From Tannerella sp. (lineage in GTDB: Bacteria; Bacteroidota; Bacteroidia; Bacteroidales; Tannerellaceae), in assembly GCA_031267485.1 (NCBI GenBank), contig JAIRYY010000085.1, positions 1-13,984 on the forward strand: a DNA stretch of 13,984 nucleotides, written 5' to 3'. This document shows positions 377 through 13,984 of the stretch, in pieces; position 1 is the first letter of the stretch, and each line of letters starts with the position of its first letter. The notes under the pieces were generated by a model. The model was not told the origin of the DNA. It was given only the letters and a program-made list of their open reading frames with translations, and did not search any database. The position numbers were made by a program, and so were the translations under genes.

Positions 377-1528
377 CTATGAACGCGGTTTGTTGCCGAA
401 GCACAGCAGCGTGCCTTTGGCGGTCAGAATGAGGAGGCGGCCTTTTATGACGGCGGGGGAGGCGGTGATTTGTTCGCCTGCGTCGTATTCCCATTCGAGT
501 TCGCCGCTGTCGGCGTTGACGATTGAGATGATGCCGGTTTTCGTGCAGACGACTACTCTGTCGCGGCATATCACGGGCGAACTTTCCCCGGCGCTTCCCC
601 TGAGCATGAATTTCCAGTTCGGATTGCCGTCCTTGCGGTCGACGGAGTACAGGTAGCGGTCGTCCGTCAGGAAATAGAGCGTTTCGCCCGTAATGGCGGG
701 GACGGAAACGAACGCGCTGTTCCCGTCCATCGAACTCAGTATTTTTTTGTGGCGGACGATTTCTCCCTTTTCCAGCTGGAGTTCGTACATGTTGCCGGAA
801 TAATCGCCCAGGTAGCAGTAGTCGCCCATGATGGCGGGCGAGGCCGGGATGTATGCCTCAAGCTTCAGGGAATCCGTCGGGACGCCCCGTTTGCAGTCGA
901 TTATGCGCAGCCACGCGTCGCAGCCTCCGAAGAGTACGTGCCGCTTGCGGACGGCGACGGCTCCGTTCAGGTAGTAGCCCGATTCGAAGCGGCTGATAAC
1001 CGTGCCGTCCCGGCTGTCGAGGCAGTAGAGGTGGTTGTCGTAGCTGCCGAACACGATGGCCTGCCGTCCGTCGAAGTTCACGCAGTTGGGCGATGCGGCA
1101 ATCTGTCCCATCGTTTCGCAGGTCCACAGGGTATCCCGTCCGGCGAGGGAGATGGCCGTCATCATTCCGTCGATGCGTCCGATGTAGAGTACCGAATCGC
1201 AAATCATGGGGGTTGCTTCCACGGCGGTCTGCAGGTCGTATTCGAAAACCTGCTTCCCGTTGACGTCCACTCCGCGGACGAGTCCCCTTTTGTCGCACCA
1301 GTACGTCGTGCCGTTGTCGACCACCGGCGAGGAGGCGGTGCGTGAACTGCTCCTGTACGTCCACAGCAGGACGGGATTCCGGGGCAGACGCGTGTCCGTG
1401 TATCCGCTGAGCGCCGCATCTCCGCGAAACAGATGCCAGTCCATGTCGTCCGGAGTGTCGGACGATTCGGGATTGCCTCCGCAGGCCGTCAGGAGGCATA
1501 TCAGTCCTGTGTATAGTTGCTTTTTCAT
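377..1528 (-). CDS. Lipoprotein with PQQ/BamB-like beta-propeller
   Basis: A 383-residue protein, predicted to be a lipid-anchored extracytoplasmic beta-propeller. The start at 1528 gives MKKQLYTGLICLLTAC, a short type II signal with lipobox L13-T-A-C16. The open frame continues further upstream (to 2422), but only as antisense-like sequence inside the next gene. After a short polar linker comes WHLFRG, the entry motif shared with the two other propellers here, then about eight repeats ending in turns such as LLWTYR, TLWTCE, NWKFML and LEWEYD. That count suggests eight blades, as in BamB and quinoprotein dehydrogenases. The family usually serves as a scaffold or binding module; I see no proof of PQQ binding. 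It is the last gene of its operon, only 2 nt after the Fe-S adaptor gene. Inferred role: a surface or periplasmic partner of the redox chain. Confidence 0.9.
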   Translation of the reverse strand: MKKQLYTGLICLLTACGGNPESSDTPDDMDWHLFRGDAALSGYTDTRLPRNPVLLWTYRSSSRTASSPVVDNGTTYWCDKRGLVRGVDVNGKQVFEYDLQTAVEATPMICDSVLYIGRIDGMMTAISLAGRDTLWTCETMGQIAASPNCVNFDGRQAIVFGSYDNHLYCLDSRDGTVISRFESGYYLNGAVAVRKRHVLFGGCDAWLRIIDCKRGVPTDSLKLEAYIPASPAIMGDYCYLGDYSGNMYELQLEKGEIVRHKKILSSMDGNSAFVSVPAITGETLYFLTDDRYLYSVDRKDGNPNWKFMLRGSAGESSPVICRDRVVVCTKTGIISIVNADSGELEWEYDAGEQITASPAVIKGRLLILTAKGTLLCFGNKPRS

Positions 1529-1530
1529 TG

Positions 1531-2496
1531 TTAAGACAGGTATATTGCTCCTGTGGGGCAGAGGGAGGCCAGCGTTTTGCTGATGTTCGGTTTGTTTTCT
1601 TCCGGCAGCGTCACCTGCATGGCGAATCCGCGGCCGCTGAATGTAAATCCATTTTCGCTGTTGTATACGCACAGTCCGCAGCGGATGCATTTGGCCTGCT
1701 CGAACCACATATTGCCGCCGACGTGTATCTTTTTCATTGCCGGCAGGGCGGACGAGGCTTCGTAGCGCGGGCGTTTTATACCTTCCGCCGTGGCGTACAG
1801 GCGCAGTTTGCAGTCCTTTCGCCCGGCGCAGGCGCAGTGCAGGCAGCGCGAAGGCGACGGGGTGTTTTCCTGCAGGTACGCTTTCTCGTCGCTTCGGAAG
1901 CGTCCGAGCCGGGACAGATAAGCTTTTTTGTCCGCGCCGGCAGGCGTTTCCTCTCCGGGCTGGAGCGTGTCCGCCGGGGAGGCGGCCGCCAGTTCCCTGA
2001 CGATTGCGCGGATTGCGACCGGTTTGTCGACCGTTCCCCGGCGGCATGCCTTTTCGCAGGGCGCCTTGCACGTGTCGCAGGCTATCGCCGGCAGGGCGAA
2101 AGCGCGGACGAGTATCCGGCGGGCTTCCTCCGGCTTGTCGCGGTCGTGGAACAGCAGCAGCCGCTCGACGTCCAGTCCCTGCGGGCAGACCAGCGAGCAG
2201 GGCGCTTCGCAGTCGGCGCGGTGGTCGCTCAGCAGCAGTTCCAGCGAGAGCGAGCGTACCGTCCGGACGTCGTCGCCGGTGGCGTCTATCCGCATCCCCT
2301 CGGTGGGAACCGTTGTACAGGAGGGTATGATTTGCCCCGTGTCGCAGTCCCTGACGGCGCATACCATGCACGACGCCCTGTGCTTCATTCCTTTCGCGTG
2401 GCAGAGCGAAGGGATGTCGCATCCGGCGCGTCGCGCAGCTTCGAGTATCGTTTCACCCCGGAGCGCTTCCACTTCCATACCGTTGATTGTCATCAT
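1531..2496 (-). CDS. Multi-cluster Fe-S adaptor (NuoG-like [2Fe-2S] + GltD/DPD-type [4Fe-4S])
   Basis: A 321-residue cytoplasmic electron carrier. Residues 1-75 form a NuoG/HydA-type [2Fe-2S] domain (C32, C43, C46, C60 with classic spacing). Residues about 90-170 resemble the helical two-cluster domain at the N terminus of GltD, dihydropyrimidine dehydrogenase and NfnB (C96, C100, C104-P; C140, C143, C147, C151, then KPVAI). The C-terminal third has CLHCAC (218-223), C229-KLR, and CIRCGLC (270-276) plus C313-PTGA for another [4Fe-4S] cluster. The flavin and NAD domains that normally follow the GltD-type module are absent, so it looks like an adaptor rather than an enzyme. It probably docks on the NuoEF fusion encoded two genes upstream. 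The start is MM at 2496 or 2493; upstream in-frame sequence is out-of-frame overlap with the hydrolase gene. It lies 16 nt after the hydrolase gene and 2 nt before the lipoprotein gene. Confidence 0.9.
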   Translation of the reverse strand: MMTINGMEVEALRGETILEAARRAGCDIPSLCHAKGMKHRASCMVCAVRDCDTGQIIPSCTTVPTEGMRIDATGDDVRTVRSLSLELLLSDHRADCEAPCSLVCPQGLDVERLLLFHDRDKPEEARRILVRAFALPAIACDTCKAPCEKACRRGTVDKPVAIRAIVRELAAASPADTLQPGEETPAGADKKAYLSRLGRFRSDEKAYLQENTPSPSRCLHCACAGRKDCKLRLYATAEGIKRPRYEASSALPAMKKIHVGGNMWFEQAKCIRCGLCVYNSENGFTFSGRGFAMQVTLPEENKPNISKTLASLCPTGAIYLS

Positions 2497-2512
2497 GGCT
2501 GCGGTTCGTTTT

Positions 2513-3427
2513 TTAGCGGAACGAGCCTTCGCATACGCAGAGGAGCTTGTAACTGTATCCGGCGGACGCGTCGCCCCGTATGTCCACCAGGCCGGGATAT
2601 TCGATGTGCATGCCGGCCACGCGTATGCCCTTTTCCGCGACGCAGGCCATGATGCGGCGGCGCGACGCGATGGCGGCGGCGGGGTCGACATCGAACGATA
2701 CCGCTACCTGCGGGCAGGGTATCTGGATGGGCGTCACGTGCGTCACGTCTCCCCATATCAGCAGCCGGTATCCGTCCGAATCAAGCAGGTAAGCCGTATG
2801 GCCGGGCGTGTGCCCGTATGCAGCAATGGCGCGTATGCCCGGCAACAGTTCGCGCGCCGTGCCGTCCGGTTCGCCGGGGACGAACAGATGCAGGCTGTCC
2901 CGGTAGGCGTCCAGCATTTTCCGTGCGCCGGCGAATCCGTTCCGCCGGTTTTCGGGGAGGCGCATCATGGCCTCGTCGCTCGTCCAGTAGTCGTATTCCG
3001 CCTGCGCGAGGTAGAGCGCGGCGCGGGGGAAAGCCTTTTTTCCGTCCTGCAGCAGGCCGCCGATATGGTCGCCGTGCAGGTGAGTGAGGAGGATGATTTG
3101 TATATCTTCCGCCTTTTTGCCGCATTTCTCCAGATTGCCCGTCAGATTCCGCCCCAGTCCGGCGTCGACCAGCACGGTGCGGCCGTCCGCCTCGGCCAGG
3201 AACGCGTTGATGGCGCTGCGGTAGACGCCGCCGGGGAGGTATCTGTTCAACATCTCATCCGTAGCTCCAATCAGCATGTTCGCGTTACCCTCCTGCTGAA
3301 CGTCCGTCAGTGTCGTGATGCTGAACGCACCCGCTCCGAAAGTCACCGGCTCCGTTTTGTCCTGTGCCGGGACGCTGCCGGCAAACAGTGAAAGCATCGC
3401 CGGTAAAATAATTTTTTTTGTTTTCAT
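2513..3427 (-). CDS. Secreted metallo-beta-lactamase-fold hydrolase
   Basis: A 304-residue MBL-fold hydrolase. An N-terminal signal peptide (MKTKKIILPAMLSLFAGSVPA, cleavage near A21-Q22) predicts export to the periplasm. All seven metal ligands of a dinuclear zinc site can be placed: THLHGDH (H116, H118, D120, H121), GHTPGH (H210), GD (D227) and GMH (H274). The fold and length fit the lactonase/phosphodiesterase-like branch of the superfamily, but the substrate cannot be read from sequence. The ATG at 3427 is preferred over a TTG two codons upstream because it gives a canonical signal peptide. A 69-nt AT-rich gap separates it from the NuoEF fusion gene, the widest gap within this operon, so an internal promoter is possible; I see no clear consensus. 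A periplasmic hydrolase between cytoplasmic NADH-oxidoreductase genes is unusual. Confidence 0.92.
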   Translation of the reverse strand: MKTKKIILPAMLSLFAGSVPAQDKTEPVTFGAGAFSITTLTDVQQEGNANMLIGATDEMLNRYLPGGVYRSAINAFLAEADGRTVLVDAGLGRNLTGNLEKCGKKAEDIQIILLTHLHGDHIGGLLQDGKKAFPRAALYLAQAEYDYWTSDEAMMRLPENRRNGFAGARKMLDAYRDSLHLFVPGEPDGTARELLPGIRAIAAYGHTPGHTAYLLDSDGYRLLIWGDVTHVTPIQIPCPQVAVSFDVDPAAAIASRRRIMACVAEKGIRVAGMHIEYPGLVDIRGDASAGYSYKLLCVCEGSFR

Positions 3428-3496
3428 AATCAATATATATTTAAAAATTAATAGGTCTCCGTATGTTATGTTTGCTGCGCAGAACCCGTCGTCCGG

Positions 3497-5917
3497 TCAT
3501 GCCTGTGTAAGTTTCGCCGCCAATTGATTGCGGGCGCCTCCGACCTTTCGTATGGCGCCGGAAGCGCACTCGTCGATGCACAGGCCGCACTGCACGCATT
3601 TGGCGGTGTCGATTGTGTGGATTTGGTAGGGCGAATAGGGAATTGCGTCCACCGGACAAGCCTTGGCGCACTTCGTGCATCCGGTGCAGTCGCCGGTGAC
3701 GGCGTATTTCACCAGTGCCTTGCATGTGCCGGTCCGGCAGACGCCGTTCACGTGCTCCATGTATTCCTCGCGGAAATATTTCAGCGTGGTCAGCACGGGG
3801 TTGGGCGCCGTCCGTCCCAGTCCGCAGAGGGAAGCTTTCCTGACGTTCAGCGCCAGTTCTTCGAGCGTGTCGATGTCCGCCGGTACCGCCTTTCCGCCGC
3901 AAATCCTGTCGAGTATGTCGAGCATCCGGCGGATACCGACCCGGCAGAACGTGCATTTGCCGCAGGACTGTTCGCAGGTGAAACTCAGGAAATAGCGCGC
4001 CACGTCGACCATGCAGTCGCTTTCGCTCAGCACGACCAGACCGCCCGAACCCATCATGGCGCCCATTTTGCTGAATGCGTCGAAATCGACCTGCACGTCG
4101 CACAGGTGAGCCGGGATGCATCCGCCCGACGGTCCGCCAATCTGGACGGCTTTCAGCGCCTCTCCTCCCTCCACGCCTCCGCCTATGTCGTGGATGATCC
4201 GGTTCAGCGTGATGCCCATCGGGACTTCGATAAGTCCGCCGTGGCGTATTTTTCCCGCGAGCGCGAACACTTTCGTGCCCGTGCTCCGTTCGACGCCTAT
4301 GCCGGCATAGCGTTTCGCGTCCCCGCTTATGATGTACGGTATCTGGCTGAGCGTTTCGACGTTGTTGACGAGCGTCGGCAAGCCGTGCAGGCCTTCGCCG
4401 GCAGGGTAGGGCGGACGCTGCCTGGGAAAGCCGCGTTCGCCCTCAATGGAGGCGATGAGGGCGGTTTCCTCTCCGCAGACGAAAGCGCCTGCGCCCTCGA
4501 ACACGGAGATGTCGAAAGAAAACCCGCTGCCGTCGATGTTTTCGCCCGTCAGACCTCGTTCGCGGCACAGCGCCAGCGCCATGCGTATGCGGCTGACGGC
4601 CAGCGGATATTCGGCGCGGATATAGAAGATACCTTTTCCCGCTCCGACGGCGTATCCGGCAATCAGCATGCCTTCAATCACCCGGAACGGATACGATTCG
4701 AGCATCATGCGGTCCATGAACGCGCCGGGGTCGCCCTCGTCGCCGTTGCAGATGACGTATTTCTCCTCCCTGTCCGCCGCCGCGACGAGCGCCCATTTCT
4801 TGCCGGTGGGGAATCCGCCGCCGCCGCGTCCGCGCAGGCCGCTTTTCAGGATTTCGTCTATGACTTCGCTGCCCGAAAGCGACGACAGCGCCCTGTGCAG
4901 CGCGTCGAAGCCTCCGTGTGCGGCATATTCGTCCGCGTTCAGGGGCGCGACGACGCCGTATCCCTCGGTGGATATGTGTTTCTGTCCGGCCAGGAAGCTG
5001 TCGATGATGCCCGTCCGTTCCCGTTCGGGTTTCCATATCACGTTATCCCACGTGATGTCGGTGTGGAACGTGTCGATGTGGTTGACCAGGATGTTCTTCA
5101 GGCGTTTCAGGCGGCCGGCGGGCTTGAAGTTATGGTGGAGGATTTCCTTTATCTCGGTCACTTTCACGTTCGGGTAGCGGGTGATGGCGCCGTCGGGGCG
5201 AACGACATCAATCAGCGGCGTCCGGTTGCATACCCCGACGCAGCCGACCGGTTTGATGTCCACTTCGATGCCCAGTTCTGCGGAGGCGGCCGTCAACTCC
5301 CGGTAGATGTCCGCCGAGCCGCTTGCCTGGCAGCACGAACCCATTCCGATGCGAATCTCGCCGGAGGCTTTCCGCCGCGTTCTGTTGCCGCCGTCCCCCT
5401 CCTTTTCCGTCCCGGCGATGGAGAGGAAGTCGCCAATCACTTCGCTGACCCTTCCCGGCATGACCCGGCCGTATATCTTCTCGTCGATTTGCACGACGGG
5501 CGCCAGCGTGCAGCAGCCCAGGCATGCGATTTTTTCCAGCGAGAACAGCCGGTCGGCCGTCGTGATGCCGCCGTCTTCCAGTTTCAGCTCGCGGCGGAAC
5601 GAGTCGTAGACGTTTCCCGCCCCCTTGACGTGGCAGGCCGTCCCCGTGCATACCTTGATGAGGTGTTTGCCGTAGGGTATGTGCCGGAATTGGGAATAAA
5701 ACGTGGCGACGCTGACGAGTTGCGCCCGGTCAATCTCCGTTCGTTCGTAAACGCGTTCCAGCGCGGCGGACGGGAGGTAGCCAAATTCTTCCTGGAGCGC
5801 CTGCAGCAGGGGGATGATGATTTGCCGCGACGCGCCGATGCGGTCGATGACGGCGTCCGTCCGCGCCGTCATCCCGTCTGCGTTTGCCGTCCGGCTATTT
5901 TCACAATTGCATGCCAT
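3497..5917 (-). CDS. NuoE-NuoF fusion NADH oxidoreductase with C-terminal 2[4Fe-4S] ferredoxin
   Basis: An 806-residue cytoplasmic diaphorase that should oxidise or reduce NAD(P)H through FMN. Residues 20-165 form a complete NuoE [2Fe-2S] domain (C90-X4-C95, C132-X3-C136). Residues about 187-265 form a second thioredoxin-like domain (C195, C196, C226, C230), where the usual first cysteine is G191. Residues about 275-720 are NuoF: GLRGRGGGGFPTG (360-372) and NGDEGDPGAF (391-400) for FMN/NADH, GEETAL (482-487), and C652, C655, C658 and C698 for the N3-type cluster. The C terminus adds a pair C727/C732 and two ferredoxin motifs (C744/747/750/754 and C774/777/780/784). The NuoF-to-ferredoxin layout matches HydB-type subunits of soluble NADH-linked hydrogenase and Nfn-like complexes, with the NuoE subunit fused in front. 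An SD-like AGGA (5925-5928) lies 7 nt before the ATG. It starts 12 nt after the three-TM propeller gene. Confidence 0.95.
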   Translation of the reverse strand: MACNCENSRTANADGMTARTDAVIDRIGASRQIIIPLLQALQEEFGYLPSAALERVYERTEIDRAQLVSVATFYSQFRHIPYGKHLIKVCTGTACHVKGAGNVYDSFRRELKLEDGGITTADRLFSLEKIACLGCCTLAPVVQIDEKIYGRVMPGRVSEVIGDFLSIAGTEKEGDGGNRTRRKASGEIRIGMGSCCQASGSADIYRELTAASAELGIEVDIKPVGCVGVCNRTPLIDVVRPDGAITRYPNVKVTEIKEILHHNFKPAGRLKRLKNILVNHIDTFHTDITWDNVIWKPERERTGIIDSFLAGQKHISTEGYGVVAPLNADEYAAHGGFDALHRALSSLSGSEVIDEILKSGLRGRGGGGFPTGKKWALVAAADREEKYVICNGDEGDPGAFMDRMMLESYPFRVIEGMLIAGYAVGAGKGIFYIRAEYPLAVSRIRMALALCRERGLTGENIDGSGFSFDISVFEGAGAFVCGEETALIASIEGERGFPRQRPPYPAGEGLHGLPTLVNNVETLSQIPYIISGDAKRYAGIGVERSTGTKVFALAGKIRHGGLIEVPMGITLNRIIHDIGGGVEGGEALKAVQIGGPSGGCIPAHLCDVQVDFDAFSKMGAMMGSGGLVVLSESDCMVDVARYFLSFTCEQSCGKCTFCRVGIRRMLDILDRICGGKAVPADIDTLEELALNVRKASLCGLGRTAPNPVLTTLKYFREEYMEHVNGVCRTGTCKALVKYAVTGDCTGCTKCAKACPVDAIPYSPYQIHTIDTAKCVQCGLCIDECASGAIRKVGGARNQLAAKLTQA

Positions 5918-5924
5918 GATAAAT

Positions 5925-5928
5925 TCCT
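5925..5928 (-). promoter_or_regulatory. Shine-Dalgarno of the NuoEF fusion gene
   Basis: AGGA on the minus strand, 7 nt before the ATG at 5917, supports that start. Most other genes here lack a clear SD, as is common in Bacteroidetes. Confidence 0.6.
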
Positions 5929-5929
5929 G

Positions 5930-7732
5930 TCATTTGTTTGCTACACAGTAAATGCTTTTCTCGGTGCGCACCACAATCCTGCCGTCCGTGAACGCGGGCG
6001 TGGCGAGCGTTTTCTCTCCCGTCTCGAAAGCGTCCAGGAGCGTGAAGCTGTTGTCGGCGGAGAAGATGTGCATTTTCCCGTCGTTGCTGAAGAGGAAAAT
6101 CTTCCCGTCGGCGATGACGGGCGACGAGTAAAACTCCGTGTTCAGTTCGTGTTCCCCGCGCAGTTCGCCGGTCTGCGCGTCGTAGGAGGCGACCACGCCG
6201 TAGCTCGTCGCGAGGAAAAGGTTTTCCTTCGTCGCTACCGGACTGGATACTTCCGGGAGGAAGTCGTTGCTTTCCCACAGGACGCTGCCGTCCGCGCCGT
6301 TGATGGCTACCAGCTTTGCATATTCGCTCGCTCCGAATATGATGCCGTTTGCGCTGCATGCGCTCGACCCGACTTCGCCCGTGAGACATTCGACCCGCCA
6401 GAGCTGTTCTCCGCTGTCCGGGTTGTAGGCCGTGATGGCGGGATTTCCCATCAGGACGAGTTGGGGTTTGCCGTCGACGTATGCGATAATGGGCGAGCTC
6501 CATGTTATTTTTTCCGTCCGGCTTTTGCTCCACCGCTCGGCGCCGGTGTTTATGTCGAGCGATACGACTTTCGACGCGTTCCGGTTGTCGTACTGCACGA
6601 TGACGGAGTTGCCGAAAACGAGCAGCGACGAGGCGTACCCGTAATGATTGTCCGGCACGCCCAGGTTCCGGCTCCATAACCTGTTGCCGTCCGTGTCGGC
6701 GCATATTATGTCGCCGGTGGCGAAAATCGCGCAGACCTGTTTCCCGTTTGTGGCAACGCTCGAGGCGGCCAGCCCGGTGTCGTCCGTCGTCTCCGGCATT
6801 TGCGACGGCGAACCGGAGATGTCCGTGGCAGCCAGCGTCCAGAGGCGCTCGCCCGTCGCAAGGTCGTGGCAGTATAGTTCGCGCGCTTCTTCGTCGGCGC
6901 CCGAAAAGAAGATTTTGTTTCCGTTGATGACAGGCGAGTTGTATCCTTTTCGCGGAACGTCATGCTTCCATGAGATGTTTGTCCCGCTGCTCAGATTCCA
7001 TTTGGCGGGCACTTCTTTTGCTGCTGATATGCCGTTGGAGTTGTTTCCTCTGAAGGCGTTGTGGGTTGCCTGAGGGTCTTTTGGGACTATTGGGACTTGG
7101 GGGGCTTGGGGGTCTTTGGGGGATTCGGGGATGTTTTGAGCGGTGTCGTTTGATGAGATGTCTGCGGGATTGTTGTCGGGGGGGGCGGCGTCTGTCTCGA
7201 TATTGTCGTCCGCTGGGGGGGCGACGGGTTCTTCCGTGCTGCTGTTTTGCATCGCCTGTTCCCGGACATGGGCTGTCTTCATGAGGGGGGATGTGAGGAG
7301 GGCGAAAATGAGGGCGGCGGCGGCGATGGCCGATGCCATCCATACGACGTACCGGCGCGCCTGCGATTTGACGAGCCATTCGTCGACCGGGTCTATCTTT
7401 TTATCCGGTATGTTGCGGTCGTTTGCGAAATAGAGCCTGACCGATACGATGAAGACGAACAGCATGCCCGACAGGATGTATACGCCCGTCATGAGATGGT
7501 CGAGCCTGACGAAATAGGCCTTTCTGGCGAGCAGGTCTAACTGCCGGATTTGCTCCTGCAGGACGGGATTGTCCGCATTGCTGTCGTTTAGCTGCTTCAA
7601 TGTTTCTATCACTTCGGCCTGGAGCGGCGTCGTTCCTCTGACCTGAAAGTAGTTGGTGACAAGCATAATCGAAAATACGGCCACAAAAATGGCGGATACG
7701 ATGGCTATGTTTCTGAGAATTGTCCGTTTCAT
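5930..7732 (-). CDS. Three-TM membrane protein with PQQ/BamB-like beta-propeller
   Basis: A 600-residue membrane-anchored propeller. Hydrophobic segments lie at about 8-28, 82-102 and 129-147. Residues 30-75 between the first two are polar and helical. A flexible linker rich in Pro, Asp and Asn (about 160-225) leads to FRG (227-229) and then a propeller of about eight repeats with turns such as SWKHDV, RLWTLA, RLWSRN, QLWRVE and VLWESN. The propeller is most likely periplasmic on the positive-inside pattern (NDRNIPDKK and KSQARR between TM2 and TM3). It has no heme or Fe-S motif. It is the first gene of the downstream operon; its leader carries TTCACGTTATT 39 nt before the ATG. It may be the membrane anchor that brings the NADH-side complex and the periplasmic parts together. 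Cofactor use (PQQ) is unproven. Confidence 0.9.
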   Translation of the reverse strand: MKRTILRNIAIVSAIFVAVFSIMLVTNYFQVRGTTPLQAEVIETLKQLNDSNADNPVLQEQIRQLDLLARKAYFVRLDHLMTGVYILSGMLFVFIVSVRLYFANDRNIPDKKIDPVDEWLVKSQARRYVVWMASAIAAAALIFALLTSPLMKTAHVREQAMQNSSTEEPVAPPADDNIETDAAPPDNNPADISSNDTAQNIPESPKDPQAPQVPIVPKDPQATHNAFRGNNSNGISAAKEVPAKWNLSSGTNISWKHDVPRKGYNSPVINGNKIFFSGADEEARELYCHDLATGERLWTLAATDISGSPSQMPETTDDTGLAASSVATNGKQVCAIFATGDIICADTDGNRLWSRNLGVPDNHYGYASSLLVFGNSVIVQYDNRNASKVVSLDINTGAERWSKSRTEKITWSSPIIAYVDGKPQLVLMGNPAITAYNPDSGEQLWRVECLTGEVGSSACSANGIIFGASEYAKLVAINGADGSVLWESNDFLPEVSSPVATKENLFLATSYGVVASYDAQTGELRGEHELNTEFYSSPVIADGKIFLFSNDGKMHIFSADNSFTLLDAFETGEKTLATPAFTDGRIVVRTEKSIYCVANK

Positions 7733-7770
7733 TTACCTGATTTGAAATTTTTATGTTTAACTTTTTCTTT

Positions 7771-7781
7771 AATAACGTGAA
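7771..7781 (-). promoter_or_regulatory. TTCACGTTATT leader motif
   Basis: On the minus strand TATATATATTTCACGTTATT precedes the three-TM propeller gene by 39 nt. The same core, TTCACGTTACT, occurs 15 nt before the cyclase gene (13788-13798) and at 323-333. TATATTTC just upstream is one base from the Bacteroidetes -7 box TAnnTTTG, but I find no good -33 partner. It is best treated as a conserved leader or regulator site shared by both operons. Confidence 0.45.
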
Positions 7782-7821
7782 ATATATATACTGAGTCCGG
7801 CATGGTTTTGTGCATTGCTAT

Positions 7822-7968
7822 TCATCGCAGTCTCCCTCCCCGTCATTGCAATCTCCCTCTTCGTCATAGCGAGCTCCCTCTTCGTCATTGCAATCTCCCT
7901 CCCAGTCATTGCAGTCTCCCTCCCAATCATTGCGAGCTCCCTTCCCGTCATTGCAATCTATCTTCCCG
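7822..7968. repeat. 21-bp tandem repeat array, 7 units
   Basis: Seven contiguous 21-bp units start at 7822, 7843, 7864, 7885, 7906, 7927 and 7948. The consensus core is TCATTGC(A/G)A(T/G)CTCCCT followed by a variable CTTCG or CCCAG end. The unit contains GTCATTGCGA, the terminal sequence of the palindromic element that follows directly at 7965, so the array probably arose by slippage at that end. Both strands stay open in one frame, producing 7-residue repeats in spurious ORFs. Confidence 0.9.
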
Positions 7969-8037
7969 TCATTGCGAGGAACGAAGCAATCCAGGCACAG
8001 GCGACAACCTGGATTGCTTCCTTCGTCGCAATGACGG
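7965..8037. repeat. Dispersed palindromic element (31-bp arms)
   Basis: CCCGTCATTGCGAGGAACGA at 7965 onward pairs with the arm ending in CGCAATGACGGG at 8037. The arms are about 31 nt (7965-7995 and 8007-8037) with two mismatches, and the loop is about 11 nt. This GTCATTGCGAGGAACGAAGC...GGATTGCTTC palindrome is a widely dispersed intergenic repeat in many unrelated bacteria, often mis-annotated as a protein containing ARNEAIQ and FVAMTG. It is a non-coding mobile-type or REP-like repeat. Confidence 0.85.
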
Positions 8038-8071
8038 GAGAAATACAATGCACAAAAATATTCCGCGTGAT

Positions 8072-8140
8072 ATAACATGTAATGGTTTATCAAATCGTGT
8101 ACTTCCATTTGCTTATAATCATTCTTTATATAATGATGAA
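8072..8140. repeat. Two leader-like fragments in opposite orientation
   Basis: ATAACATGTAATGGTTT (8072-8088) is identical to 13803-13819 in the cyclase leader. It is followed at once by CAAATCGTGTACT (8091-8103), identical to 277-289, and by TTTGCTTATAATCATT, which matches the left-end block. Pieces of one leader-like repeat are thus joined here head to head. No gene follows on either strand within reach. Confidence 0.7.
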
Positions 8141-8205
8141 TATCCGATGCCGATGGGAATCTTCCCCGAACAGCGCGGGAAGCTCGCCATACGTGAGAGA
8201 AACCT

Positions 8206-8275
8206 TTCCGCAAATCCGTTTCGACGTTTCGCACTTTGCGGAATCTGCCGGCGCGGACTGCAAGCCCGCGCCGGC
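8206..8275. repeat. Two adjacent hairpins
   Basis: TTCCGCAAA (8206-8214) pairs perfectly with TTTGCGGAA (8235-8243). Immediately beyond, GCCGGCGCGG (8247-8256) pairs perfectly with CCGCGCCGGC (8266-8275) across a 9-nt loop. Neither has a T-run in the direction of the operon, so they are not classical intrinsic terminators, though they lie 3' of the upstream operon. Confidence 0.6.
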
Positions 8276-8280
8276 GAGGA

Positions 8281-8504
8281 GGCTGTCCTGAACGTTAGGA
8301 AACCTTCCTGCAAGTTGCAGGAGGCTGTCCTAAACATTAGGAAACCTTCCTGCAAGTTGCGGGGAACTTTCCTAAACATTAGGAAACCTTCCTGCAAGTT
8401 GCAGGAGACTGTCCTAAACATTAGGAAACCTTCCTGCAAGTTGCAGGGAACTTTCCTAAACGTTAGGAAACCTTCCTGCAAGTTGCAGGAGACTTTCCTA
8501 AAGA
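8281..8504. repeat. 42-bp tandem array of palindromes, 5 units plus a partial
   Basis: Units start at 8295, 8337, 8379, 8421 and 8463 (exact 42-bp period), with a partial unit before them. Each unit holds TCCTGCAAgTTGCAGGA (8-bp arms, 1-nt loop; one arm degenerate in unit 2). Across unit joints lies TCCTAA-ACA-TTAGGA (6-8-bp arms). The array therefore forms about ten consecutive stem-loops on either strand. Differences between units fall mostly in the GGCTG/GAACTT/GACTG segment. There are no unique spacers, so it is not CRISPR. The 14-codon period keeps frames open on both strands. Confidence 0.92.
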
Positions 8505-8541
8505 GTTGTCTAAAAATAACCATGTCATTTTTATTCACATT

Positions 8542-8620
8542 CCGTCCGCTGACGGGACGGATGACCGGGGCTAATTCTACCGACATTCCGTACCTGACGG
8601 CATGGTGTTTAAACGTCTCC
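8542..8620. repeat. Diverged copy of the 53-bp unit plus variant hairpin
   Basis: Positions 8575-8602 match the left-end array core for 28 bases and continue with GTTTAAACGTCTCC, like the last left-end unit (TTAAATGTCTCC). At 8542-8560 CCGTCC-N7-GGACGG is a variant of the CCGTACC...CACGG core with better base pairing. The copy lies about 90 nt past the stop of the NapH-like gene, in the same orientation and setting as the array beyond the lipoprotein gene. Confidence 0.8.
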
Positions 8621-8710
8621 GGAAAACGTCCTCTCACACTTGTCGGCGCAGTTGCACAGGGCGGAAATTTACCGGATTGCAGCTGGCAGACATCGCTTCC
8701 GGTTCTGTTT

Positions 8711-10024
8711 TTACGGTCTTTCATCTTTTTCTCCTTCCTGTTTATTGGCGTTCTCCATCGCGGTTTTGTTCTGCGGGCAGTAGCTGAAGCATTTGCCGCA
8801 GGCGATGCAGTTTGCATGTTCTATTTCATATTCGGCGCGCGTGCGTTTGATGGAGAGGCCGATGAGCGCGAGGCCAATCACCAGCCCGGTCAAAGCCCCG
8901 GCTGCGGTCGAATAAATCCTGAATCCGGACAGGACGGTTTCATATCTTCCGGTAATTTCATCTACCGTACCGCCCTGACCGTAGAACGCTTCCAGTTCGA
9001 CGGAAAGCACGTCCCGCGGATTGGTCTCATGCTCCATCACCAGGGCGTAAAGGCGCGCATCCTTGTTGGCGCGGCTCAGTTCGACGCTCAGAGAACGGGC
9101 GAGCAGGGCGCCGGTAATCATCATGAGAGGCAGCAGGACGAAGTAGTTCGCAAGCCTTTTCACGCCCTGCATCCGGCTTTCCCGGACTTTGTTGTCGTAC
9201 GGAGGCCTGATAGCGTCCACGGGACATGCGTTGTGACACAGTTCGCAGTTGATGCACGGTTTGGCCGTCATTTGTACTTTCCATACGGAGACGCGCGCGA
9301 AAAGGCTCAGCAAGGCTCCGTAGGGGCAGATGAAACGGCAAAAGGGTCTTCCTGTGAATATGGCGGCGACGAGCAGCAGCACGCCTGTGACAATCAGTCC
9401 GATGTCGCCGCCCTGCCGGAAAATCCCGATGAAGGGGTCGAGCCGGCAGATGATGAAACCGCTCCGCGTCACGGCATAGAGGATTGCGAATATGAGGTAT
9501 ATCCACGGAATCACGCCCAGCACGGTGGCGACGGCTTTCGGCAGCCTGTGGTTTTTCAGGTTCACAAGCTCCTGCAAAGCGCCGAAGGGACATACGCCCG
9601 CGCAGAAAACCCTGCCGAACAGAAACGCAAACAGCACCGGCAGCATGAAAAACAGCAGGACGGAGAGCGGCAGCGCGTATGTGCTGTCGGCCAGCGCCAG
9701 CGCCACGTTCTGAACCGAGCCGATGCTGCAGACGCATCCGCTGCGGAAGAAGCCGAAGTATGCCGCGGATATGACGGAAACCCACAGAATGGGCGTTCTT
9801 GTCCGCTTTTTTACGGCCGCCCATGCGACGATGCTCATCAGCACGGCCAGCAGCGCGATGTCTGCCGCAATCCACAGGTTTTCGTCCGGGACGGCATACT
9901 GTATGTCGGGATACCGGTATCCCGACTCGAAATCGGGCTTCGGAAACCTGTTCTGGGCATACGCCACACCGGCAGTCAGAAAGCATAATCCGGCGGACAG
10001 GTATTTTTTCAATCCTTTTTTCAT
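8711..10024 (-). CDS. NapH-like polytopic membrane protein with two [4Fe-4S] ferredoxin motifs
   Basis: A 437-residue integral membrane electron-transfer protein. An N-terminal signal (cleavage near AYA23-Q24) precedes about six or seven hydrophobic segments (near 50-70, 78-93, 119-138, 163-187, 206-224, 288-310 and 372-392). It carries the paired C-X3-CP motifs of the NapH/NosR/RdxA family (C141/C145-P and C229/C233-P). Two [4Fe-4S] motifs follow: C257/260/263/267 and C406/409/412/416. An extra SGCVCSIG (C97, C99) near a membrane edge is typical of one NosR-like subfamily. These proteins pass electrons between quinol or a cytoplasmic donor and periplasmic Fe-S partners. It is the last gene of the upstream operon, 7 nt after the Tat-exported Fe-S gene. 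It is the most likely transmembrane relay of the system; the direction of electron flow is not known. Confidence 0.93.
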   Translation of the reverse strand: MKKGLKKYLSAGLCFLTAGVAYAQNRFPKPDFESGYRYPDIQYAVPDENLWIAADIALLAVLMSIVAWAAVKKRTRTPILWVSVISAAYFGFFRSGCVCSIGSVQNVALALADSTYALPLSVLLFFMLPVLFAFLFGRVFCAGVCPFGALQELVNLKNHRLPKAVATVLGVIPWIYLIFAILYAVTRSGFIICRLDPFIGIFRQGGDIGLIVTGVLLLVAAIFTGRPFCRFICPYGALLSLFARVSVWKVQMTAKPCINCELCHNACPVDAIRPPYDNKVRESRMQGVKRLANYFVLLPLMMITGALLARSLSVELSRANKDARLYALVMEHETNPRDVLSVELEAFYGQGGTVDEITGRYETVLSGFRIYSTAAGALTGLVIGLALIGLSIKRTRAEYEIEHANCIACGKCFSYCPQNKTAMENANKQEGEKDERP

Positions 10025-10031
10025 AAGCCTG

Positions 10032-10613
10032 TTATTCTTTCAGTTTGTACGCCATGCTCAGCGGTCCGCGGGCAATCGCATCCGACGGACATACGGTGGC
10101 AATCTCACATTCGTTGCAATCCCGGCACAAATCCCTCTTGATTTGAAGATAGAGGGAGCCGTTGCCGAACGAACTGCATCCTTTCACGCATTTGCCGCAT
10201 CCGTTGCACAGGCTCTCGTTTATCGTGTATTCAAAATAGGGGTCTTCGACGAATAGCCGCTGTATGGCCCCCGTCGGGCATGTCAGGTTTTCCGCTGCGG
10301 TATTCAGGTTTTTCACGTTGCTGCGGTAGTATCCCCCGCATAAATCGCAATATCCGCATACCCTGTTGGCGTGTATGCATTTCACGGCCGAAACCGGCAG
10401 CACGCAATGCGTTTCGCAGCGGCCGCACTGCGTGCACTTGTGGGGGTCAATCTGCCAGTAGTGCACGGCTTCCCGCCCTTTTGCGCGGGGTATCAGCCCG
10501 CCCGCAGCCGCAAGGATGCTTCCCCCCGCAATCGCCGACCCGGCAACCCGGAGAAACTTCCGGCGCGCCATCGGGCTGTTTCCATATTGTTCCTTATTAT
10601 CCATATCGTTCAT
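10032..10613 (-). CDS. Tat-exported polyferredoxin, about four [4Fe-4S] clusters (NapG-like)
   Basis: A 193-residue exported iron-sulfur protein. The twin-arginine signal ARRKFLR (16-22) is followed by a Gly/Ala-rich hydrophobic stretch ending near 40. Cysteine sets are C60/63/66/70; C86/89/92 with C112-P (plus C79); C136/139/142/146; and C163/166/169 with C175-P. This fits about four [4Fe-4S] clusters and the NapG/NrfC-type family, folded in the cytoplasm and exported or membrane-held by Tat. Starts at M1 (10613), M4 or M15 are all possible; M1 gives an 8-nt gap to the preceding propeller gene, and none changes the Tat motif. Its NapH-like neighbour is its obvious partner, as in NapGH. Confidence 0.93.
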   Translation of the reverse strand: MNDMDNKEQYGNSPMARRKFLRVAGSAIAGGSILAAAGGLIPRAKGREAVHYWQIDPHKCTQCGRCETHCVLPVSAVKCIHANRVCGYCDLCGGYYRSNVKNLNTAAENLTCPTGAIQRLFVEDPYFEYTINESLCNGCGKCVKGCSSFGNGSLYLQIKRDLCRDCNECEIATVCPSDAIARGPLSMAYKLKE

Positions 10614-10621
10614 TTACAGTT

Positions 10622-12055
10622 TTACACGATTTTCAGACATTTGACCCGGTGCGCATCCCTCACAATCAACATGCCGTCCGCGTATGCGATAGGCCCCCAC
10701 GCATCGGCGCCGTCCTCCATTATCCGCTGCCTTTTGAGCAGGTTCAGATTCCGGTTCCGGATTTCGTAGACGTAAAGCTCCCCGTCATCCTTGAAGATAA
10801 AAATGTTGCTGTTTATGATGATGTAAGGCCCCAGGCCGAAGCGTTCGTCCGCCGCCGAGGTCCATACGGGCGCGTGCAGGTCGGACGGGTCGTAACAGAC
10901 CAGCTTCCCCCGGTGAGCGCCGCCATCCTTCGGCATGATGCTGAATATCAAATTGCCGTACAGTATCGGCGTCTGCTGTTCGCTCGACAGGCCTTCGTTC
11001 GGTCTGTACTGCTCCGTTACCGCCGCCGTCCATTTCCCGCCGGAACGGTCAACCTGCAGCAGCGCGCCTCCGGCGCCGTAACCGGCAACCACAAAGATTC
11101 GGTTCGAGGAAACCTGAAGCGGCGAGGGGGCAACCACCGACGGCTGCCATTTGCCCGTTTCCCACAGCAGGCCGCCACGGTCGTTCCCGTCGGCGGAAAT
11201 GCCGCACACCCCGCCGATGCCGGCATATACATACGTCTTTTTCCCGCCCAGTACCATTGATATGACCGAGGAATGGGACATTTTGTATTTGAGCGTGTTC
11301 GGCGTCGTCCACAGCATCCCGCCCGTCCTGCAGTCCAGCCCGGCCAGCAGGGTCTCCCCGCCGGCGGGCGCGAGAACTAAAACCTCGCCGTCCACATGCG
11401 GGCACTGCCCGGTATACCAGAACGGCACTTCCGTCCGGAACTCCTTTTGCATGTCGAGCGCCCATTTCATGTCTCCCGTCACGGGGTCGCAACACATGAC
11501 GTGCCCCTCCGGCCCAATCGTTATGACATAGCCGTCGCCGACAGCCGGGACCGTGCGCGAAAAACCGTGATTGCGCTTTATGGGCACGCGGTACCATCGC
11601 CGCCAGAGTTCCTCCCCCGTTTCGAGCGAAAAGCAGCGCAGCGCATCCGAACTCAGCTGCTCGTTATAGTCAAGGAAATAGACCCGGCCGTTGTATATCG
11701 CGGGCGCCGCATGGCCTTCGCCCGTTTCCACACTCCACAGTACGGGGTAGTCGCCGCCGGAAACGTTGATTTTTTCCGGCGTCACGATGATGTTTCTTGA
11801 CCCCTCGCCGCGAAAGTTTGTCCATTTGCCGGATAATCCGGGATTCAGATCCTGCCCGTCGCCGTATCTCATGAAAAATTCGCCGATAACGACGTCGCCG
11901 GCCGTTCTCGTCTGTCCTTCGGGACGGTTGTCGGCGCCGGGCGCCTGGACGGACAGATTCCCGCGGGGCACGTACAGATGCCACCCCACAATGATTGCGA
12001 TGTAGATGATTAACGTCAGTACGGTTATTGCCGTTACAGTCCTTTTTCCGTTCAT
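10622..12055 (-). CDS. Single-TM membrane-anchored PQQ/BamB-like beta-propeller
   Basis: A 477-residue protein with an uncleaved-looking signal anchor (about 7-27) and a periplasmic propeller. After a polar linker comes WTNFRGEG (78-85), the entry motif shared with the other propellers. About eight repeats follow with turns such as VLWSVE, LWRRWY, MKWALD, MLWTTP, LLWETG and PVWTSA. CC at 188-189 is not the ring-disulfide signature of quinohemoproteins with certainty. The start at 12055 is chosen because its ATG overlaps the TGA of the cyclase gene (ATGA) and follows GAGG by 8 nt; the open frame extends 23 codons further but inside the cyclase gene. Translational coupling to the cyclase suggests joint function or fixed stoichiometry. 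Confidence 0.9.
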   Translation of the reverse strand: MNGKRTVTAITVLTLIIYIAIIVGWHLYVPRGNLSVQAPGADNRPEGQTRTAGDVVIGEFFMRYGDGQDLNPGLSGKWTNFRGEGSRNIIVTPEKINVSGGDYPVLWSVETGEGHAAPAIYNGRVYFLDYNEQLSSDALRCFSLETGEELWRRWYRVPIKRNHGFSRTVPAVGDGYVITIGPEGHVMCCDPVTGDMKWALDMQKEFRTEVPFWYTGQCPHVDGEVLVLAPAGGETLLAGLDCRTGGMLWTTPNTLKYKMSHSSVISMVLGGKKTYVYAGIGGVCGISADGNDRGGLLWETGKWQPSVVAPSPLQVSSNRIFVVAGYGAGGALLQVDRSGGKWTAAVTEQYRPNEGLSSEQQTPILYGNLIFSIMPKDGGAHRGKLVCYDPSDLHAPVWTSAADERFGLGPYIIINSNIFIFKDDGELYVYEIRNRNLNLLKRQRIMEDGADAWGPIAYADGMLIVRDAHRVKCLKIV

Positions 12056-13773
12056 TTGTCCGTCCTCAGTTTTTTCAGTGCGTTCAATACGAACGTTATG
12101 TTGTACAGTTCCTCCGAATACCACAGCCGGGCGAAATAAAGCCCGACGGGTTCGGGCTGAAGCAGCTCGCCCGCCGCGTATTTCCGGTACAGATAGTCAA
12201 AGGCGCGTTCAGCGGCATCCGTCGCGGTATGGCGGCAGGATGCGATGGCGGCGAGCGCGCGCGCCGTCAGCGTGACTTTCGAGGGGACGTCCCGCGCGCC
12301 TCCCCATCCTCCGTCGCCATTCTGTACGGAAAGGATGTATTTCAGGCCTTTTTCGCGCATCTCCCCGGCCTGCGGATGTTTCATCGCGGACAGGTATTCC
12401 ACGGCCATCGCCGTTCCGTAGACGGGAGAACGCCCGTCTGCGGCGTTCTGGTCGCCAAACCATAACGGCGTCCACGAGCCGTCGGACGCCTGCGCCCTGT
12501 CCATCCATTTGAGTAAACGCCCGGCGCTTCGGGCGCATCTGTTTTTTAAATCCGCCGGAAGCGAACCGTGCCACAGCTCGAAAGCCAGCATTGCATGAGC
12601 CGAGATGTCGGGACTGCTGCGGTCGAACGGGAGCTTGCCCCATCCCCGGCAAAAGGTGGGCATTCCTCCGTCGCTGTTCTGCAGTGACAGAAGCCATTCG
12701 ACGCCTTTGCGCGCTTCCCTGCAATACCGGCCATCCGAGAGGATGTGGAGGGCAACGAGCGCTCCGGCGGTATCGTCCGCATCGGGCGCCGAGCCGGCGA
12801 GGTCGGTCCATCCCCATCCGCCTTCCATGGCGCCGGTGAAAGGATGCCTGAAGGCGAAGGCGCTGCCCTTTATGATTCCGGCCAGCGAGAGCTTTTCACC
12901 GCTGTCCAGGTCGCCCTCCAGCGCCCTGACGCTTAATGCCGTGACCCAGCAGGCCAAATCGGTGTCAATCGGCCACGCCCCGTCTTCCCGAACCGTATCC
13001 GTCAAGAAGTCCACTCCTTTCCGGGTGGCGGTATGGTCGCGATAGCCCGCGCCGCTCATGCACATGGCGACGAACGCCGTCAGCGGCGCCGCTTCGAGGA
13101 AACCGCCATGCACGGGCTGCAGCCTGACGAGCGTCTCCAGAGATTTGCCGATGAATGTTTCGCGCAGGGGAGAAAGGAGAGTCTTTTTACCTTTTTTGTG
13201 CCGCAGGATTCCCACCGCAATCAGCGCCGGAATCGCATAGCTGACGACGGGAAGCCGGAAGAAACGGAACAGCTTTTGGGGCAGAACGGATATTTCGAAA
13301 GGTAACCGGGGGATGCTGTCCCAGCTTTTGATAATTCCGGCCAGTGCGCACATGACGAGAATCGGCGCGGAGAACGTCAAATCCCGGCCGTAGCAGGCCA
13401 GTACTCCGTTTATGATGTGGCTGTCGGTTATCCCGCCGAATTTCGCCGTCAGGCAGGTTTTTGTTTCTTCCGGAGCGTTGTCGACCGCACAGAGGGAGGC
13501 ATAAGCCAGCAGGGTCGCCGTCATGTTCGGCGGACTTTCGACGGTATCGCCCCATGAACCGTCCGTCCGCATCGTCTTTTTCAGCCACAGAACGCCTTGC
13601 CGTATGTAAGAAGCGTATTTCTCCCGGTCATTCATGTAGAGGGCAAAAACGGAAACGGACGTGGAGACTGCGCTTGACGACAGTTCGCCCCTCCACATAC
13701 CGCCGGGCGTCCGTCTCTGACGGAGCAGTTCAACCAGCTTCCCGGTCATTTCTTCTATTCTCGTATCCGTCAT
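12052..13773 (-). CDS. Squalene-hopene-cyclase family protein (class II terpene cyclase)
   Basis: A 573-residue homologue of squalene-hopene cyclases, slightly short for the family (about 620-640). The general acid motif is intact: D331-A-D333-D334-T-A, preceded by GGWGW (318-322) as in hopene cyclases. QW-type repeats are recognisable: DGSWGD (71-76), DGAW (264-267), QNSDGG (365-370), DGSW (431-434) and QNGDGGWGG (484-492). C-terminal PVYGTAMAVEYL and YNITFVLNAL match the conserved end of the beta/gamma barrel. Residues 150-195 contain a hydrophobic segment comparable to the membrane-dipping region of this monotopic family. The chemistry should be proton-initiated polyene cyclisation; substrate (squalene or another polyprenoid) is unknown and no squalene synthase is nearby. 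It is the first gene of the operon, with the AT-rich leader ending AAAAG-ATG and no SD. Confidence 0.88.
   Translation of the reverse strand: MTDTRIEEMTGKLVELLRQRRTPGGMWRGELSSSAVSTSVSVFALYMNDREKYASYIRQGVLWLKKTMRTDGSWGDTVESPPNMTATLLAYASLCAVDNAPEETKTCLTAKFGGITDSHIINGVLACYGRDLTFSAPILVMCALAGIIKSWDSIPRLPFEISVLPQKLFRFFRLPVVSYAIPALIAVGILRHKKGKKTLLSPLRETFIGKSLETLVRLQPVHGGFLEAAPLTAFVAMCMSGAGYRDHTATRKGVDFLTDTVREDGAWPIDTDLACWVTALSVRALEGDLDSGEKLSLAGIIKGSAFAFRHPFTGAMEGGWGWTDLAGSAPDADDTAGALVALHILSDGRYCREARKGVEWLLSLQNSDGGMPTFCRGWGKLPFDRSSPDISAHAMLAFELWHGSLPADLKNRCARSAGRLLKWMDRAQASDGSWTPLWFGDQNAADGRSPVYGTAMAVEYLSAMKHPQAGEMREKGLKYILSVQNGDGGWGGARDVPSKVTLTARALAAIASCRHTATDAAERAFDYLYRKYAAGELLQPEPVGLYFARLWYSEELYNITFVLNALKKLRTDK
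12063..12067 (-). promoter_or_regulatory. Shine-Dalgarno of the single-TM propeller gene
   Basis: GAGGA on the minus strand, within the 3' end of the cyclase gene and about 8 nt before the ATG at 12055. Together with the ATGA overlap it argues for coupled re-initiation. Confidence 0.55.
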
Positions 13774-13865: not shown

Positions 13866-13984
13866 CCATTTTCCGCGTGCCGTCAGGTACGCTATGTGAC
13901 TGTCACCACATTCCGTACCTGACGGCACGGGCCTGGACAGGCCTCCGGCATTTTCTACCGACATTCCGTACCTGACGGCACGGA
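13866..13984. repeat. Terminal direct repeat, right copy
   Basis: Identical to positions 1-119, including the 16-bp-arm hairpin (13876-13929) and tandem units starting at 13908 and 13961. The window stops inside the second unit, so the array presumably continues. If the ends are joined, the cyclase start and the lipoprotein stop are separated by 468 nt of repeats. Confidence 0.95.

Follow-up and report, generated by a model that had tools for sequence, protein, structure and literature searches.

A conserved Bacteroidales locus pairing a predicted electron-bifurcating core and propeller proteins with a class II terpene cyclase

The window analyzed here is an entire contig of 13,984 bases from a Tannerella sp. 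genome (JAIRYY010000085.1) that is 77% complete. Its nine genes, each with an assignment backed by Pfam or NCBIfam, specify a class II terpene cyclase, three propeller proteins, a NapG-NapH pair, a NuoE-NuoF fusion with an Fe-S adaptor, and a metallo-beta-lactamase-fold protein. An earlier note, made from the sequence alone, had placed all nine on one strand, and we confirm this: all lie on the minus strand, with transcription proceeding from the cyclase through PQQ1, NapG, NapH, PQQ2, the NuoE-NuoF fusion, the metallo-beta-lactamase-fold protein and FeSU to PQQ3. In that order, the features are:

12052-13773, minus strand: class II (squalene-hopene-type) terpene cyclase, 573 aa, with the DXDD acid motif (Pfam SQHop_cyclase_C/N)
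10622-12055, minus strand: PQQ1, a membrane-anchored propeller, 477 aa (Pfam PQQ_2), hydrophobic at residues 4-30, model pLDDT 89.3
10032-10613, minus strand: NapG-like ferredoxin with a twin-arginine signal and 17 conserved Cys
8711-10024, minus strand: NapH-like membrane protein carrying a pair of CX3CP motifs and Cys sets of the ferredoxin type
7733-8710, no strand: interval between NapH and PQQ2, filled with repeats and corresponding to no boundary in relatives
5930-7732, minus strand: PQQ2, 600 aa, three predicted membrane helices and then a propeller, model pLDDT 79.2
3497-5917, minus strand: NuoE-NuoF fusion, 806 aa, read here as a BfuC-BfuB fusion and a predicted FMN electron-bifurcating core
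2513-3427, minus strand: metallo-beta-lactamase-fold protein with a signal-like N-terminus, below the cut-off of the AidB model, a probable passenger
1531-2496, minus strand: FeSU, 321 aa, a BfuA/NfnA-like Fe-S adaptor lacking the FAD/NAD(P) domain that its long homologs have
377-1528, minus strand: PQQ3, a propeller of 383 aa with the lipobox LTAC
13866-13984, no strand: copy of a dispersed repeat that closes the contig; its final 116 bases are identical to the initial 116 of C99, another contig of this genome

The intergenic gaps, again in transcription order, measure -4, 8, 7, 978, 12, 69, 16 and 2 bases, the ATG of PQQ1 overlapping the cyclase stop. Judged from hydropathy and motifs, with no trained predictor, PQQ1 has one N-terminal helix, NapG a twin-arginine signal, NapH several helices, PQQ2 three and PQQ3 a lipobox. 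A tRNA scan of the window found none, Rfam gave no match in it at the gathering threshold, and no nitrate- or N2O-type reductase gene was recognized in it by Pfam or NCBIfam. The window has no gene for the propeller NHLtat, which in most relatives sits between those for PQQ1 and NapG; an NHLtat homolog lies on another contig of the same genome.

A scan of genome contigs for the cyclase yielded 56 loci, with titles of Bacteroidales type except for one labeled “Eubacteriales” (L020). The shared genes of L020 show the same percentages as those of the Parabacteroides locus L018, and because of this match its contig is likely to have been mis-binned. In the common order, an aquaporin, CobW, a LytS kinase and a LytTR regulator (these four in only part of the loci), an Fe-S protein, a radical SAM protein, a DUF116/prenyl-synthase fusion and a small toroid protein precede the cyclase, which is followed by a PQQ1 family member, NHLtat, NapG, NapH, PQQ2, NuoEF, FeSU and PQQ3. 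Aquaporin-family (15) and CobW (14) genes occur near the row among the 56 loci, L037, L041, L042 and L052 included. Downstream of PQQ3, and adjoining it in relatives, are an ATPase and an FtsX-type permease of 1,026-1,088 aa (nine complete; two Pfam-tested, both FtsX). The downstream half could be assessed in the 42 loci whose sequence extends 8.5 kb or more past the cyclase, the other 14 being too short: a same-strand NapG follows in 40 and NapH in 39, and the exceptions are one locus cut within NapG (L024) and two rearranged loci (L017 and L030) with redox genes at most 10 kb away. Upstream, the 48 loci with at least 4.3 kb hold the toroid protein in 46 cases, the prenyl-synthase fusion and the radical SAM protein in 45 each, and the Fe-S protein in 42. 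Of the 37 genomes from which 38 of the 56 cyclase loci come, 32 have FeSU. The window's nine genes thus belong to a conserved Bacteroidales locus.

Because the gene order is kept in dozens of genomes, a chance arrangement is excluded. Tree distances of the cyclase and of NapH plus NapG agree (r 0.95 over 49 loci; r 0.93 over the 44 loci of the derived clade), as expected for a row that has been inherited or transferred together. We regard the gene anatomy and its conservation as solid. The carriers bear titles of gut, rumen, insect-gut-type and marine Bacteroidales; G278, placed in the window's family, has the very same locus genes as the isolate Parabacteroides sp. PF5-6 (L023), whose family is therefore also that of the window, and the genome Hm464_bin62 holds two copies of the locus (L036 and L053). 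In a phylum sample of 395 genomes, a PQQ1 profile at E 1e-60 matched the window's genome alone; as few Bacteroidales are among the genomes listed, the result means no more than that this sample showed the module nowhere else. The homolog lists comprise the best 120 matches, so that phyla other than Bacteroidota may occur beyond them; the organism names among these 120 we take to be those of Bacteroidota. The alignments used below include duplicate rows, with distinct sequences numbering 63 of 64 for the cyclase, 45 of 45 for NuoEF, 43 of 45 for FeSU, 62 of 65 for PQQ1 and 60 of 63 for NapH.

The earlier note had divided the nine genes into two tight operons. An operon boundary at 7733-8710 is rejected: this 978-base interval consists of repeats, with tandem arrays of 42 bp (5.4 copies, 8277-8502) and 21 bp (7.3 copies, 7822-7975), and in 40 of the relatives' cyclase loci NapH and PQQ2 are same-strand neighbors, always at most 149 bases apart. 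The interval further contains, at 8575-8625, a dispersed element that recurs at both contig ends (1-119 and 13866-13984). A circular element is likewise rejected: the 119 bases common to both ends belong to a repeat that, counting the match to itself, occurs 101 times in the genome, and many relatives' loci lie on longer contigs. Contig C99 carries the Fe-S protein, the radical SAM protein, the prenyl-synthase fusion and the toroid protein in the order and on the strand seen in relatives; the search reports one internal stop in the fusion gene, the frame as read being open for 527 aa. The identity of the first 116 bases of C99 with the final 116 of the window fits adjacency of the two contigs and, because the element has 101 genome matches, is no proof of it.

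According to PMC9304861, the marks of the Bfu family are FMN and six Fe-S clusters in BfuBC, a B2-site histidine is missing from non-bifurcating homologs, and a Type 4 Bfu without BfuA is described. By our own assignment of Cys residues to clusters, 24 of the 25 ligand positions are filled in all 45 aligned NuoE-NuoF fusions, and the one left over, in B2, holds C, T or S in 39 of them. The diagnostic histidine, H722, is present in every one of the 45 rows, and its spacing to residues 635, 673, 727 and 732 is, one residue excepted, as printed for NiFe-BfuB in that paper. The protein also shares the FMN/NAD loop of the Bfu family. Its best solved relatives are, in rank order, NfnB (9n5u), 9bov_B, 8oh5_B (labeled HoxF) and HydB, 8oh5 being presumably the StnABC structure. 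The StnABC enzyme is treated in PMC10482914. Because the BfuBC ligands are kept, the diagnostic histidine among them, the protein is not a plain NADH dehydrogenase, and a NuoEF/HoxFU diaphorase is rejected; an electron-bifurcating BfuBC-type core is the prediction well supported by these ligands. To this extent the earlier note's reading as a NuoEF fusion is corrected. The first half of FeSU matches NfnA at 2.8e-34, the protein as a whole being shortened. Its homologs in L160 and L163 are long and carry a FAD/NAD(P)-type domain, and the 45 rows comprise 11 of 509-536 aa, 22 of 319-369 aa and 12 of 198-222 aa, length classes that look like stepwise domain loss.

Toward the membrane, NapH retains 15 Cys in all 63 rows, and the prolines of its two CX3CP motifs in 61 and 63 of them. 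Both NapH (69.8 bits; cut-off 213.05) and NapG (21.5 bits against 178.85 for the MauM/NapG model) score below the curated models, and a sequence search of the PDB with NapH gave one weak ferredoxin match. The earlier note had proposed a chain from NADH to the periplasm; the localization signals fit such a path, but, since the NADH end has the ligand set of a bifurcating core, NADH as the sole donor and an outward flow are not established. In PQQ1, 121 residues are kept at a level of at least 93% over the 65 rows (one of which, L032:308, is only 24% identical and a probable paralog), and His, Met and Cys are among them. Its fold is common to PQQ alcohol dehydrogenases, BamB and tetrathionate hydrolase. 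The vicinal Cys-Cys that forms the disulfide of the PQQ site is not conserved in PQQ1, whose profile has QC at the aligned place, and on this ground a PQQ dehydrogenase is rejected for PQQ1. All three propellers remain below the 285.2-bit cut-off of the curated BamB model (PQQ1 28.5, PQQ2 76.1, PQQ3 85.1). The secreted hydrolase that the earlier note had counted as part of the module, namely the metallo-beta-lactamase-fold protein, is indeed present with its signal-like N-terminus; it scores 179 against the 360 bits required by an AidB-type lactonase model, and, because its gene was found in only four other loci, it is probably a passenger.

The terpene end comprises five genes, those for the Fe-S protein, the radical SAM protein, the prenyl-synthase fusion, the toroid protein and the cyclase. 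The DXDD general-acid motif of the cyclase is present in 64 of 64 aligned rows, and the protein scores 79.3 bits against the 431.1 required by the squalene-hopene cyclase model TIGR01507. Squalene/phytoene synthase (PF00494) was sought in 39 genomes, namely the window's own, 27 of the 37 cyclase-locus genomes and 11 further genomes bearing the prenyl-synthase fusion. It exceeded the Pfam cut-off in nine and fell below it in one (control positive in 7 of 14); none was over the cut-off in the other 30, the window's 77% complete genome included, and none was found in the seven genomes not titled as metagenome-assembled (behind L016, L019, L022, L023, L025, L026 and L067). In one of the nine positives, G066, the synthase gene lies on contig C16 about 21 kb from FeSU. 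Given these counts, squalene is an unlikely substrate, and the cyclase probably acts on the product of the prenyl-synthase fusion. Among the rows printed for this fusion, the commonest show DDxxD motifs; in L016 (7464-9035) DUF116 is fused to a polyprenyl synthetase, and seven Cys of the DUF116 part are kept in 54 of 54 rows. The radical SAM protein has weak similarity to HpnH and only distant solved relatives. A classical hopanoid cluster is rejected, the TIGR01507 score being too low and squalene synthase mostly missing.

Drawing these strands together, we tentatively favor, while granting it somewhat less than an even chance, a composite Bacteroidales system in which a Bfu core, a NapH-NapG wire, the propellers and, in relatives, an ABC-type exporter have been joined in one clade to the five-gene isoprenoid pathway. 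The Bfu core would exchange electrons with NAD(H), with ferredoxin and, via FeSU, with the NapH-NapG wire, so that the periplasm would be its third partner. In the likelier direction, NADH and reduced ferredoxin would be merged and their electrons pushed outward to a propeller reductase, with PQQ1 as the best candidate for the catalytic unit. The DUF116-prenyl synthase fusion, the radical SAM protein and the DXDD cyclase would make a cyclic isoprenoid from a polyprenyl diphosphate, not from squalene, and the redox arm may either act on this lipid in the periplasm or have it as a dedicated membrane component. Here we infer the direction of electron flow, the chemistry of the propellers and the identity of the lipid.

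Whether the two halves travel together was gauged in 393 genomes of the order, with thresholds of E 1e-80 for the prenyl-synthase fusion (16 genomes) and E 1e-50 for NapH (68 genomes). NapH occurs in 14 of the 16 genomes with the prenyl-synthase fusion against 54 of the 377 without (Fisher p 5.8e-10), and, counted by genus, in 11 of 11 against 46 of 206 (p 2.5e-8), neither value being corrected for shared ancestry. Most of these NapH matches are 37-46% identical to that of the window. Among 11 of the 54 genomes that were inspected, NapG adjoins NapH in 10, NuoEF is close by in 10, and no terpene gene was recognized in the stretch. In the divergent genome G330 (L121/L160) the two modules stand in one row. 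The alternative that the island carries two independent modules, a periplasmic redox system and a hopanoid-like lipid pathway with no functional coupling, draws on the 54 genomes, most of those inspected showing the module layout, and on loci in which the terpene genes stand alone. It has to contend with an order and orientation kept over long divergence, with linkage both in the derived clade and in G330, and with the presence of NapH in all 11 genera that have the prenyl-synthase fusion, and we consider it unlikely, if a serious contender. The earlier note had inferred that its two operons act together, a claim that would fall if they occurred separately with no co-occurrence: the two halves do belong together, their order being kept in relatives. 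The redox and the terpene genes, for their part, are each also found alone, and their co-occurrence is strong. The redox-terpene link is thus real but not obligatory.

Several observations weigh against the composite system. Redox genes are found with no terpene module in the 54 of 377 genomes just mentioned. The reverse is seen in five divergent loci, L122-L125 and L128, where the five terpene genes stand apart from NapG, NapH and NuoEF (in L122, propeller and regulator genes lie upstream), and two genomes with the prenyl-synthase fusion, G237 (82% complete) and G240 (97%), have no NapH at E 1e-50. No FeSU was seen in five of the 37 genomes (G063, G076, G080, G089 and G096), and its role as BfuA is uncertain, because the window's clade is without the flavin domain and 12 of the 45 rows are only 198-222 aa long. 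No cofactor site was recognized in any propeller. The cyclase is patchy: of 37 genomes in the window's genus, 8 have a strong match. Nine of the 39 genomes tested do have squalene/phytoene synthase, and the adjacency of the window and C99 is no more than suggested, by a shared dispersed repeat.

With the same parts, electrons could instead flow inward, the propellers oxidizing a substrate and NapG-NapH feeding the Bfu core for bifurcation to NAD+ and ferredoxin. The fold that PQQ1 shares with PQQ alcohol dehydrogenases and tetrathionate hydrolase would suit this; the PQQ-site vicinal disulfide, however, is not conserved in it, and NapGH-type proteins are outward electron carriers. Even with the reversibility of Bfu enzymes noted in PMC9304861, we judge inward flow improbable. 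As improbable, in our estimate, is a secondary-metabolite cluster in which the redox arm would tailor the cyclic terpenoid as a reductase, its export and decoration falling to the exporter and glycosyltransferase of relatives. The ATPase and FtsX-type permease beside PQQ3, a glycosyltransferase-like gene cluster in 14 loci (two Pfam-tested) and the weak HpnH similarity of the radical SAM protein speak for such a cluster, but the exporter ATPase, the glycosyltransferase and the redox genes also occur where the prenyl-synthase fusion was not found. A bolder extension of the composite system, in which the bifurcating core, wired directly across the inner membrane to periplasmic propellers, forms a quinone-independent, cytochrome-free energy system with the squalene-free cyclic isoprenoid as its redox lipid or substrate, strikes us as quite doubtful.

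What the locus provides is a fused Bfu core in Bacteroidales whose periplasmic partner can be put to the test; with that third partner it would be a Bfu enzyme of a kind that we know nowhere else. As the cyclase pathway appears to bypass squalene, a cyclic lipid may exist in gut anaerobes. The earlier note had known of no named system with this gene set, and our searches of open-licence papers, judged mostly by titles and the openings of abstracts, likewise gave no description of the locus.

Among known systems, the Bfu family (HydABC, Nfn-Bfu) shares with the locus the FMN/NAD loop, the BfuBC ligand positions and the B2 histidine, whereas here BfuC and BfuB are fused, a shortened NfnA-like adaptor stands in the place of BfuA, and the partner genes encode NapH, NapG and propellers. 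The membrane types named in the available part of PMC9304861 are Mbh-Bfu and Nuo-Bfu, with no NapGH-linked type among them, and 17 Bfu clades are given there as having no obvious function. NapGH/NosR-type proteins have the same CX3CP motifs, ferredoxin Cys sets and twin-arginine partner; the present pair differs in lying far below the curated cut-offs and beside a Bfu core. Squalene-hopene cyclases and hpn clusters are alike in cyclase domain family, DXDD motif and, in relatives, a nearby radical SAM gene, and unlike in the low TIGR01507 score, the lack of a squalene synthase above the cut-off in 30 of 39 genomes and the DUF116-prenyl synthase fusion. PQQ1 shares its propeller fold with PQQ dehydrogenases, BamB and tetrathionate hydrolase, but has a residue pattern of its own, without conservation of the PQQ-site disulfide. 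In overall design, the locus is reminiscent of the Listeria-type flavin-based extracellular electron transfer locus, which likewise combines dedicated NADH oxidation with a locus-encoded isoprenoid pathway.

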